A DNA stretch of 13,646 nucleotides, taken from assembly GCA_927798255.1 (NCBI GenBank), contig CAKMMH010000028.1, positions 1-13,646 on the forward strand, in the 5' to 3' direction. Made by a program: the position numbers and the translations under genes. The notes below the pieces were generated by a model. That model was not told the origin of the DNA. It saw only the letters and a list, made by a program, of their open reading frames with translations, and did no database searches. Numbering within the stretch: position 1 is the first letter of the stretch; the number at the start of each line of letters is the position of its first letter. The stretch is from an uncultured bacterium (GTDB lineage: Bacteria > Bdellovibrionota_C > UBA2361 > CAKMMH01). Below are positions 8,086 through 10,957 of this stretch, one piece after another.

Positions 8086-8203
8086 CAATAAATCAAAAAA
8101 TACTTCGTTATTTGAAGGATGAGCCGTCCTCGCTGTACTTGAGTACAGCTCCGGGTGCTCACCCTCAAATGCCTCGTCTTTTTTGTTTCTTGTCAATTTT
8201 TGA
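8075..8203. repeat. Long imperfect palindrome (~129 bp), probable bidirectional terminator or palindromic mobile-like element
   Basis: The two halves are near reverse complements. The outer arms TCAAAAATTGACAA (8075-8088) and TTGTCAATTTTTGA (8190-8203) match perfectly. Next come an A-run on the left and a T-run on the right, then ATTTGAAGG/CCTCAAAT and GAGC/GCTC, and a perfect core GCTGTACT-TG-AGTACAGC (8132-8149). The GC-rich core flanked by an A-run before and a T-run after is the layout of a terminator working on both strands, fitting its place between convergent genes. Its size and terminal repeats also suit a small palindromic repeat family scattered in the genome. The left arm overlaps the stop codon of the upstream gene. 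Confidence 0.8.
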
Positions 8204-8462
8204 AGCTTCTTGTCTCTCCTGTGTCTCGCTAATTTTTTATTCAATCACTCTTTTTTTGAAGGTTCTTGTCTTTTCTGTGTCTAGCTAATTTTTCAAATAG
8301 CACTCCCTAGCAACTTTTAATACAAACAAATTAATCTTTACAATCAATAATATTTTACTCGCGACATTAAAAATGCTTCGTATTTTAGGCGCCTCGCTAG
8401 TTTTTTATTCAATCACTCTTTTTTTTGAAGGTTCTTGTCTCTTCTGCGTCTTGCTAATTTTT
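8197..8462. repeat. Three degenerate copies of a 41-bp repeat, two inside a 68-bp direct repeat
   Basis: The unit TTTTTGAAG followed by (C/G)TTCTTGTCT, a pyrimidine stretch and GCTAATTTTT occurs at 8197-8237, 8253-8293 and 8422-8462. A longer 68/69-bp direct repeat (8226-8293 and 8394-8462) contains ATTCAATCACTC and differs by about four substitutions and one T. Extra partial copies of the GCGC(C/T)TCGCTAGTTTTTT end occur at 8389-8406 and 8493-8510. The first copy overlaps the end of the long palindrome. The DNA between (about 8294-8388) is AT-rich with no ORF I can support. This is non-coding repeat DNA, not CRISPR. Confidence 0.75.
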
Positions 8463-8558
8463 ATGAATTAGTATAATATCACTTCTTTTTTGGCGCTTCG
8501 CTAGTTTTTTAACTTGTTCTTTCTTTTTCCTATTTTCCGTGTCAGGAAATTTTTTATT

Positions 8559-8671
8559 TTACTCGAAGAGTAACCCATAGCGCGAAGCGCGGTGCCAGGG
8601 CCGGGTGAACGGAGCGAACCCGGTTGAATGAATACATCTCCGCCCTCCATTAACCACCCCTTTAAGGGGGG
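8559..8671. repeat. GC-rich cluster of small hairpins in AT-rich intergenic DNA
   Basis: Within about 115 bases there are four inverted repeats: TTACTC-GAA-GAGTAA (8559-8573), GCGC-GAA-GCGC (8580-8590), CCGGGT...ACCCGG (8601-8623) and CC(A)CCCC...GGGGGG (8654-8671). Base composition is strikingly GC-rich against the surroundings. The last hairpin lies 17 bases beyond the aroQ stop and may help end that minus-strand transcript, but no T-run follows it in that direction. The cluster may be a repetitive palindromic element or a structured RNA. I cannot name a family. Confidence 0.6.
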
Positions 8672-8687
8672 CCTAATATATATTTAT

Positions 8688-8963
8688 TTATAAATTTTTT
8701 TGTTTTTCTTCTAAAGCCACTGATTGAGCCATAATTAAGGAAAATAGCTTACGCACAAAATTCGATTCAAGCCCAAGCTCTTTGGCAACTTGAGTACAAT
8801 GACTTAATACTTCTTCTTCACGTTCAGGAACCTTTAATGCTTGTCCATTTTTTAACTTAACAATACCAATCTTTTTACAAAATTCAAAACGCTTTGTAAG
8901 TACATTTAATAATTCTTTATCTAATTTATCTATCTCTTGACGCATATCTGTTATTTCTGCCAT
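8688..8963 (-). CDS. aroQ: Chorismate mutase, stand-alone AroQ class
   Basis: This 91-residue all-helical protein converts chorismate to prephenate, the branch to phenylalanine and tyrosine. It aligns without gaps to the mutase domain of E. coli PheA with an offset of three. Arg8, Arg25, Lys36, Arg48 and Glu49 correspond to Arg11, Arg28, Lys39, Arg51 and Glu52. Two site residues differ: Asp48 is Val45 here, and Gln88 is Glu85, as in yeast chorismate mutase. There is no fused dehydratase or dehydrogenase domain. The start is set by AGGT eight bases before the ATG and by its fit to the first helix. A Phe-rich short ORF lies 107 bases upstream on the same strand, suggesting feedback by attenuation. 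The gene is convergent with the efflux operon. Confidence 0.92.
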   Translation of the reverse strand: MAEITDMRQEIDKLDKELLNVLTKRFEFCKKIGIVKLKNGQALKVPEREEEVLSHCTQVAKELGLESNFVRKLFSLIMAQSVALEEKQKNL

Positions 8964-8984
8964 ATTTCTATACCTATTAAAATT

Positions 8985-9014
8985 TAAATAATAATAAATT
9001 ACTATTATTATTTA
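8985..9014 (-). promoter_or_regulatory. Inverted repeat in the aroQ leader (A/T-only stem)
   Basis: TAAATAATAATA (8985-8996) and TATTATTATTTA (9003-9014) form a perfect 12-bp inverted repeat with a six-base loop. It ends ten bases before the AGGT ribosome-binding site of aroQ. On the minus strand it is followed by AATTTTAA, only a weak U-tract. It might act as an attenuator stem or modulate access to the ribosome site. Alternatively it is simply low-complexity AAT repeat DNA. Confidence 0.35.
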
Positions 9015-9070
9015 TTTCATTTTTATATTTATTTTTACTTGTTGTGATTTGGATATAATGATTATGAAGC

Positions 9071-9190
9071 TTAGAAGCTTCTAAAGGCAAAAGGAAAGAA
9101 ATTGAAAACTTCGATGTTAATTAATCTAATATTACTTTTATTTTCTAACTTCCAAATATCTTTATAAATACCACAATCAATCACAATCAT
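9071..9190 (-). CDS. Candidate Phe-rich leader peptide upstream of chorismate mutase
   Basis: This 39-codon ORF begins MIVIDCGIYKDIWKL and ends VFNFFPFAFRSF, with six Phe among the last eleven residues. GAAAGGA sits eight bases before the ATG (9199-9205), one of the best ribosome sites in the window. It lies on the aroQ strand and stops 107 bases before it. A hairpin GAAGC-TTCTAA-GCTTC spans the stop codon. A possible -10 (TATAAA, minus strand, 9237-9242) lies upstream. Phe-rich leaders control pheA, which carries a chorismate mutase domain, in enterobacteria; the same logic is inferred here. Against it: no strong GC-rich terminator is visible before aroQ, and the Phe run comes from a pyrimidine tract, so chance is possible. 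Confidence 0.45.
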   Translation of the reverse strand: MIVIDCGIYKDIWKLENKSNIRLINIEVFNFFPFAFRSF

Positions 9191-9391
9191 ATGTGTATTC
9201 CTTTCAAATTAAATATATTTACAATCTGAAAACTATTTTATAATAAATTAATTTTTTATTCTACATGTTTTTACTGACATCTTATTACAAAAAAAAAGAG
9301 CATATTTGTATAAAACTAAATAATTATAAAAAACTTACAAAAATTTCTCTTTATAAAAATGGTCTATCAAGAAATATTATCTTTTTTTTTA

Positions 9392-9407
9392 TGGCATAAA
9401 GATTGCT
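9392..9407 (+). promoter_or_regulatory. Sigma-54 (RpoN) promoter of the fliK-like gene
   Basis: TGGCATAAAGATTGCT matches the sigma-54 consensus TGGCAY-N5-TTGCW. The -24 GG (9393-9394) and -12 GC (9405-9406) are separated by exactly ten bases. The predicted start at about 9418 leaves a leader of about 28 bases before the ATG at 9446. Hook and basal-body genes are RpoN-dependent in several flagellated proteobacteria, so the context agrees. Transcription would need an enhancer-binding activator of the FlbD/FleQ/FlgR kind. I saw no clear activator site in the AT-rich 200 bases upstream, which hold no other gene I can support. Confidence 0.8.
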
Positions 9408-9445
9408 TTTATATGTTAAAGTTAATATTTTATAAGCGTTAATAT

Positions 9446-10957
9446 ATGGAAAGTAAATTAGAAAATATATCAAATAATCAATGGGTTATGGACATATTTA
9501 AAGGTCTAATAGGCTCTAATCTTAGCTTAAAAAATGGTATTGAAAGTGATAATTTTTCTTCTATGCTAGAAAAATTTTCCTCCAAAAATTCAAATGACAA
9601 AAATTCTAATAATATTAAGAAATCTGATAATAAGTCATCGTATAATAAATACTCAAGTGAAATAAATGATAGAGTTAGAAAAAATGAAATAAAAAAAGCC
9701 CAAGAAGATAATAAAATTAAACCTATAAAAACAGAATATAAAGAGGATGCAAAAGAAATTGAAAAATTTAATGAAGTTAATGAAACAGCTGAAGAAAATG
9801 AAACAATTGATGAAAATAACAAGGATGTAATTTTAAAACTTGACGATGAGTTAATTTCAAAAATTATAAGCACTTTAGAAAATACAAATAAATTTTCTCA
9901 AAATGAACTTCAAACAATAAAAGACGCATTAAAAGAAACTAGTGAAAATTTTCAAGAATTAAATTTAAAAGACTTATTTGATAATTTAAAAGATTTTTTA
10001 GAAAGTGCTAATTTAAATGTTGCAAATTTAGATGAGTTTTTAAATGATGTAAAAGATGTAATAAAAGAGTTTTTTGATGAGAATAAAATTACATTAAAAT
10101 TAAATGAAATAAATAGTGATACTAATGAAAAAATTGAGCTGGCAAGTAATAATACTAAAGAAGATACTGAATCTAATGATACGAAATCAATAATTTCAAC
10201 TTTTGAAAAAATATTAAATGATGTTTTTAAATCAAATTTAGTTGGTAGTGAAAATAATGAAAATCAAGATAATACAAATTTAGGCTTTAATTTAGATAAT
10301 TTGTTTAGAAATAATAATAATAAAAACCATTTTGATGTAAAAGATTTGATAAATTCAAGTTTTAACGAATTAATAAAAGAGGGAACAATAGAAAATTCAT
10401 CAATAATGAATTTAGAAAATAATTTTAATAATACACAAGATTTCATAAAGACATTAAATATAGAAGCAAAAAAACTAACTAATATTGATATTAAAAATGA
10501 TACATCATTAAAAAGTATAGATAGTGTAACATCGTCAAGAGTTCTTGAAAGAGTACAGGAAGTGTTAAAGGCTGTATCTTCTTCAAAAGATGGTTCTACA
10601 ATATCTCTAAGATTAGACCCACCAAGCTTAGGAGAAGTTAAAGTAGATATGTCATTTAAAAATGGAAGCTTGTTTGCAAGAATTATTGCAGAATCCCAAG
10701 AAGTAGAAAATTTGCTTAAAAGTAAAGTTAATGAACTTTATCAAGTGTTAAAAGACTCTGGTATTGATGCTGATAATATAAATGTATTTATTGCTTCAAA
10801 AGATAACTTTTTAAATTTTGAAAACGATAATGAAAATCAAAAAGAAGCTTTAGTAAAAAATAGTCTAAAAGTTATAAAAGATAATTCTGATCAAGAAGAA
10901 ACAAGTGAAATAATGCCTAATATCAATCAAATAAGCGATTCTAAGTGGATTGCTTAA
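9446..10957 (+). CDS. fliK: Flagellar hook-length control protein, FliK family
   Basis: This 503-residue protein has a long, poorly conserved Asn/Lys/Glu/Ser-rich N-terminal region (to about residue 365), expected for the ruler part of FliK. The conserved C-terminal Flg_hook domain spans about residues 375-455. The diagnostic stretch ISLRLDPPSLGEVKVDMSF (386-404) is followed by LFARIIAESQEVENLLKSKV and LYQVLKDSGIDADNINVFI. FliK is exported by the flagellar type III system, measures the hook and switches export specificity through FlhB. The ATG is placed just after the sigma-54 promoter; its Shine-Dalgarno is weak. A short tail follows the domain. No other flagellar gene is in the window. Assignment rests on the C-terminal domain and the promoter type. 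Confidence 0.9.
   Translation: MESKLENISNNQWVMDIFKGLIGSNLSLKNGIESDNFSSMLEKFSSKNSNDKNSNNIKKSDNKSSYNKYSSEINDRVRKNEIKKAQEDNKIKPIKTEYKEDAKEIEKFNEVNETAEENETIDENNKDVILKLDDELISKIISTLENTNKFSQNELQTIKDALKETSENFQELNLKDLFDNLKDFLESANLNVANLDEFLNDVKDVIKEFFDENKITLKLNEINSDTNEKIELASNNTKEDTESNDTKSIISTFEKILNDVFKSNLVGSENNENQDNTNLGFNLDNLFRNNNNKNHFDVKDLINSSFNELIKEGTIENSSIMNLENNFNNTQDFIKTLNIEAKKLTNIDIKNDTSLKSIDSVTSSRVLERVQEVLKAVSSSKDGSTISLRLDPPSLGEVKVDMSFKNGSLFARIIAESQEVENLLKSKVNELYQVLKDSGIDADNINVFIASKDNFLNFENDNENQKEALVKNSLKVIKDNSDQEETSEIMPNINQISDSKWIA

Follow-up and report, generated by a model that had tools for sequence, protein, structure and literature searches.

In the 13,646-nucleotide stretch of DNA analysed here (the window), a short open reading frame (ORF) whose end is crowded with phenylalanine (Phe) codons precedes aroQ, a gene for a stand-alone chorismate mutase. 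The presence of the ORF in the sequence is confirmed. Its interpretation as a Phe leader for aroQ, at present or in the recent past and whether working, decayed or acting on translation, is a tentative one to which we give a little less than an even chance. A Phe leader is a plausible interpretation, and it is better founded than the initial, sequence-only reading of the window could know, with the switch itself unproven. That reading had proposed a Phe attenuation leader for aroQ. Its proposal draws support from the Phe cluster, from a hairpin across the stop codon and from leaders found in related bacteria, but not from a U-tract terminator, an antiterminator or masking of the gene start.

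The window belongs to contig C28 of a 1.77 Mb assembly that comprises 240 contigs and is 88.55% complete. The aroQ product matches the chorismate mutase type II family (PF01817) with 78.2 bits, and it is the only match to this family that was found in the genome. The upstream ORF (9071-9190, minus strand) begins with ATG, ends with TAA (9073-9071) and encodes a peptide that terminates in VFNFFPFAFRSF. Its description from the letters alone was accurate: a minus-strand frame of 39 codons, a GAAAGGA motif separated from the start codon by 8 nt, Phe at six of the last 11 positions, and a gap of 107 nt (9070-8964) between its stop codon and the ATG of aroQ (8963) on the same strand. The region upstream of aroQ has a GC content of 18%. 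On the other side of aroQ, between this gene and an efflux outer-membrane gene, direct repeats of 25-43 nt occur at 8159-8511; six patterns drawn from these repeats and the DNA that follows to about 8680 had no match in a 363.5-kb sample of the genome.

Table 1. Features of the aroQ region, in window coordinates.
Feature	Position	Strand	Remarks
aroQ, stand-alone chorismate mutase type II, 91 aa	8688..8963	-	PF01817
Weak ribosome-site-like sequence of aroQ, ATAGGT	8972..8977	-	read directly
Perfect 12-bp A-U hairpin between ORF and aroQ	8985..9014	-	resembles the genome's long convergent-gene repeats
6-bp hairpin GAAGCTTCTAAGCTTC across the ORF stop codon	9066..9081	-	-5.5 kcal/mol
Leader-like ORF, 39 codons	9071..9190	-	full peptide MIVIDCGIYKDIWKLENKSNIRLINIEVFNFFPFAFRSF
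Phe-rich ORF end	9074..9106	-	6 of 11 codons Phe (3 TTC, 3 TTT)
GAAAGGA, Shine-Dalgarno-like	9199..9205	-	8 nt 5' of the ORF's ATG

A Phe cluster such as that of the window ORF arises by chance only uncommonly, which makes it rare, not decisive. When the 457-nt upstream region was dinucleotide-shuffled 1000 times, three shuffles reached at least six Phe per 11 residues, and so did one of 356 ORFs of at least 8 aa in 89 upstream regions of the 363.5-kb sample (one of 360 ORFs in 73 regions under an earlier definition, for which the sample included the window itself). This sample consisted of contigs C1-C20, that is, 20 of the 240 contigs and 363,549 of 1,765,608 bases, and any ORF no shorter than 80 or 100 aa was counted as a gene, a crude criterion. 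Upstream regions in the sample contain less A+T than the one at aroQ (GC 26% vs 18%), and the sample is therefore a slightly lenient yardstick; the shuffles preserve composition. When tyrosine (Tyr) is counted together with Phe, 67 of 1000 shuffles reach six. Eight clusters of at least six copies of a single residue were present among the 360 ORFs (one of F, one of I, three of K, two of L and one of S), so that clustering of any residue at all is commoner than clustering of the one that fits. Since the ORF was selected from the whole window, its true rarity lies below the quoted figures. A degenerate pattern of the Phe tract found 24 matching stretches in viral contigs.

The sequence-only reading had named as its own weakness that no classical terminator lies between the ORF and aroQ, and a scan of 8660-9500 for such terminators bore this out, with no sites. 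The spacer does hold the perfect 12-bp A-U hairpin, and a perfect repeat of this length was equalled in 6 of 2000 shuffles of the spacer and, when all 482 nt were shuffled, in 8 of 500 cases. No U-tract follows the hairpin 3' on the minus strand, where the next sequence is AATTTTAATA; the tail on the opposite strand is more T-rich (TTTCATTTTT). Perfect repeats of at least 10 bp number seven in 8.2 kb of convergent and one in 9.2 kb of divergent intergenic DNA in the sample (Fisher p 0.03), nine in 27.6 kb of tandem intergenic DNA and 13 in 303 kb of genes, these classes leaving out 4 of 34 repeats that adjoin stretch ends. Long perfect A+T-rich inverted repeats are thus concentrated between convergent genes (sample L145-L164), several of them having no U-tract, and they may be a terminator type of the host genome. 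The region upstream of aroQ is divergent, a setting in which such repeats are uncommon. Because a rare 12-bp repeat sits there, and such repeats may be terminators, the weakness named at the outset is softened. Elsewhere in the window, an RND efflux gene cluster is preceded by a TetR-family gene, immediately before which lies a perfect 10-bp A-T inverted repeat (1608-1631). A search for promoter-like sites found none upstream of the Phe-rich ORF, in a genome so A+T-rich that such scans say little; one occurs inside the end of the ORF (9090-9061), at chance level (5 such sites in the scan, against 6.9 expected).

Neither of two parts that define a classical, pheL-type attenuator was found in the window: a terminator hairpin with a U-tract between leader and gene, and a ribosome-controlled antiterminator pairing. 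The region after the stop codon and the first arm of the A-U hairpin pair no better than expected by chance (431 of 1000 shuffles did equally well). The A-U hairpin forms with a probability of 0.95-0.97 whatever the position of the ribosome, and whether or not the leader is blocked, so no switch is seen. The hairpin across the stop codon has a pairing probability of 0.97 when no ribosome covers it, and stop-spanning hairpins of -5 kcal/mol or lower accompany 25 of the 356 sample ORFs. The fold of the whole leader is no better than that of shuffled sequences (z -0.56), and its 3' part is somewhat stable (z -2.1). Folds suggested that the Phe tract masks the start of aroQ, a candidate that was dropped after shuffles and a comparison with 97 sampled genes, of which 64, 80 and 88 were equally or more closed on three measures. 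Blocking the Phe codons did not appreciably open the aroQ start. Pairing between the codon run and the ribosome site of the gene, of the LEU-element kind, was no stronger in the window than chance allows, and no Rfam family reached its gathering cut-off there.

Evidence from outside the window comes from bacteria of the same order. A mutase domain was detected in 21 of 27 relatives, with no mutase match in the other six, and in 17 of the 21 it lies within an open frame of 612-737 codons. Frames of similar size beside many of these carry a prephenate dehydratase match; in L002 the order mutase, dehydratase, DAHP synthase was read by eye, these being domain names given without a family model. 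Thirteen of the 21 have an aromatic-rich leader ORF ahead of the mutase gene or of the operon containing it (ten from one genus and three of class B). A full, textbook-like Phe/Tyr attenuator with a conserved terminator is present in 10 of 11 species of that genus (L004, L005, L008, L011, L013, L015, L017, L018, L026, L169), the eleventh (L007) being cut by a contig end. The leader stands ahead either of the mutase gene itself or of a preceding 300-codon ORF that resembles an aminotransferase gene. Leaders from this genus include MKALSYFFYFFSGMP, MNRSFAYFFSYVAQPF and MKVLRNAFYFVFTTWP, and three of the ten contain Trp. GGCAGA directly follows the leader stop codon, and a hairpin (GGCTCTGC...GCAGGGCC or GCGGGGCC) occurs 28-33 nt past the stop, followed by 8-9 T; GGCAGA is able to pair with the first arm of this hairpin. 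As all ten leaders come from one genus, they are not ten independent cases, and because their sequences are so alike, base-pair changes are little informative.

Class-B leaders were found in three species, one from each of three families (L002, L006, L024). They end in YSFYFSA, SSFYFGV and TAFYFGV, with aromatic clusters that 0, 10 and 0 of 100 shuffles, respectively, could match, and carry hairpins across the stop codon of -12.6, -7.3 and -14.7 kcal/mol in the three relatives. A C-rich, G-poor stretch without a terminator follows the hairpin, an arrangement that would fit Rho-dependent attenuation as a possible mode of control. L023 is ambiguous, with an ORF rich in F, whose score was attained by 0 of 100 shuffles, and then a hairpin without a T tract. 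No leader was found upstream of the mutase in L009, L012, L025, L027, L028 and L168 (6 of the 21), where L027 has a 43-aa ORF with four F/Y, mostly Tyr (4 of 100 shuffles), which was left uncounted. Second mutase copies in two genomes (L202 in G026, L203 in G007) were kept out of the tally. Outside the order, none of 10 loci has an ORF with at least five F/Y per 11 residues within 450 nt. Searches of 13 loci, including that of the window's aroQ (L040), gave no Rfam match at E up to 0.1; the 13 take in nine of the ten one-genus attenuator loci. Since aromatic leaders precede the mutase in these relatives and in none of the 10 loci outside the order, Phe/Tyr control before the chorismate mutase gene is a realistic possibility in this order.

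The best-known comparison is with the enterobacterial pheA and pheST operons, which are controlled by attenuators with the leader peptides pheL and pheM, pheL being roughly 15 aa long. As in those systems, the chorismate mutase gene of the window is preceded by a short ORF that has Phe codons clustered towards its end and a ribosome-site-like sequence in front of it. It departs from them in that its gene is a stand-alone aroQ and its leader would be 39 aa long; nor was a G+C-rich terminator with a U-tract, an antiterminator or an Rfam match found. PMC2659441 describes the general mechanism of ribosome-mediated attenuation. With the one-genus attenuators the window shares aromatic codons near the leader end and a downstream hairpin, whereas GGCAGA past the stop, the GGCTCTGC/GCAGGGCC or GCGGGGCC hairpin and the run of 8-9 T belong to those attenuators only. 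The likeness to class-B leaders takes in the aromatic end, the stop-spanning hairpin, a G-poor stretch and the lack of a classical terminator. Class-B leaders, in contrast, mix Phe and Tyr, have stronger and G+C-richer hairpins, precede a fused rather than a stand-alone mutase, and are followed by a C-richer tract (16 C in 60 nt vs 8 in the window).

Leaders that have a codon run and no classical terminator, like that of the window, are treated in PMC1262725, where Rho or start-site pairing is put forward for the actinobacterial leuA LEU element and the Mycobacterium cys leaders. For the LEU element, PMC1262725 proposes that a stalled ribosome frees the gene start. These leaders differ from the window in amino acid and taxa, and start-site pairing is unsupported in the window. 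A limited literature search found no report of a Phe leader before a stand-alone chorismate mutase.

The physiology of the host bears on the proposal in two ways. The other aromatic enzyme found in the genome is a prephenate dehydratase, whose N-terminus was not recognised as a mutase. Since aroQ is the sole mutase found, it could supply prephenate and serve Phe synthesis. In this dehydratase, encoded at 580-1695 of L031, the N-terminal stretch resembles a degenerate chorismate mutase domain, and the small ORF before its gene is reminiscent of a zinc-finger-like anti-sigma protein. On the other hand, the tested chorismate-making enzymes were not found, which weakens the physiology of a Phe leader. 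In this 88.55% complete genome, type I DAHP synthase was not detected by a search with PF00793, which leaves out the class II family and whose single match is a KDO-8-phosphate synthase; AroA was not detected, the single match to the EPSP-synthase family being MurA; and DHQ synthase, chorismate synthase, TrpE and HisG were likewise not found. At such completeness each enzyme might be absent by accident, and the accidental absence of all together is less likely unless their genes are clustered. No Phe leader was found in the 249 nt examined upstream of the host's pheA operon. Upstream of pheS there are short ORFs that contain F/Y, with at most four Phe per 11 residues; one of them (MLKCATFYSVFLDFYTN, in L165), 93 nt before pheS, is reminiscent of pheM leaders.

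Used as a protein query with one extra codon (40 aa), the window's ORF returned one cluster, P0003, identical at 36 of 37 positions, which is the window peptide read from an internal GTG start (37 aa; listed with 3 members and 31 contigs); no diverged homologue was found in this search. Two relatives of AroQ were obtained, one 98% and one 88% identical (P0002). No leader homologue appeared from the lineage of the latter, which is weakly negative because its longest contig has 1609 bases and small ORFs often go uncalled. No aroQ homologue was confirmed in a collection of genome contigs, a search that may omit records very near the window. In a tree of mutase domains, those of the order group together without the window AroQ (support 97/91), and a tree uniting it with them is disfavoured (p 0.046). 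For a grouping picked with the tree already in view, this value is borderline. Inheritance of the window leader from the relatives' leader therefore lacks support.

Taken as a mechanism, the leader reading would run as follows. Translation of the ORF would yield a leader peptide that senses Phe on behalf of aroQ, a diverged form of the aromatic leaders standing before chorismate mutase genes in other members of the order. When Phe is replete, the ribosome would reach the stop codon and open the hairpin that spans it, and RNA polymerase would stop before aroQ, either at the 12-bp A-U hairpin or through Rho, which in that case would act in the G-poor spacer. When Phe is short, the ribosome would pause at the Phe codons, and transcription would continue into aroQ. 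Of this scheme, the ORF, its Phe cluster, the two inverted repeats and the attenuator-like sequences ahead of the relatives' mutase genes are observed; translation, termination and a response to Phe are inferred. Termination is the least secure step; no way was found for a waiting ribosome to prevent it. The fully specified version, in which a reduced genome without chorismate synthesis uses a Phe leader (with the A-U hairpin as terminator, or Rho) to control the use of imported chorismate through the stand-alone mutase, is quite improbable.

The apparent leader has other potential explanations. It could be a chance ORF in A+T-rich intergenic DNA, a pyrimidine tract that happens to read as Phe codons, with aroQ free of leader control; we judge the probability of this to be slightly under one half. 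In a region of such low GC content T-rich codons are abundant, the cluster is reached by 67 of 1000 shuffles when Tyr is admitted, no switch structure was found, and a promoter-like site, of a kind expected by chance, lies within the ORF end. The share of TTC among the Phe codons (3 of 6) exceeds that in the genome's genes (about 12%; binomial 0.024), as non-coding DNA might show. Chance would nevertheless have to produce six Phe in 11 residues, which is rare in the genome's upstream regions, and to do so where Phe fits the role of aroQ and where relatives have aromatic leaders before the same enzyme. A different possibility, and one contained in the 'recently was' part of the leader reading, is that an ancestral Phe attenuator lost its switch together with chorismate synthesis. 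This is unlikely. It would account for a Phe cluster and stop hairpin that persist where no antiterminator was found, and for the failure to find the tested chorismate-making enzymes, but the assembly is incomplete (88.55%), and descent of the window AroQ from the relatives' leader-bearing fused gene lacks tree support.

Control might instead act on translation, the Phe tract folding onto the aroQ start until a stalled ribosome frees it, an idea that overlaps the leader reading. In one fold, TTTTGCC within the Phe tract does pair with GGCAGAA, which lies at the start of aroQ. Pairing between leader and ribosome site is nevertheless at chance level (774 of 1000 codon shuffles and 515 of 1000 ribosome-site shuffles were as good), and the start is neither masked nor appreciably opened when the Phe codons are blocked, which makes this version very improbable. 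Slightly less probable still is a functional small protein unrelated to Phe control. Its ribosome-site-like sequence is good and a 37-aa protein exists in public data, but the ORF peptide had no match in a Pfam search, and the protein search returned only the peptide itself.

Should the leader reading hold, a small, separate chorismate mutase of a reduced and A+T-rich genome would join the targets of Phe attenuation, with a termination signal that departs from the textbook form. Independently of the fate of the window leader, the comparison exposes apparent Phe/Tyr attenuators before chorismate mutase in the relatives.
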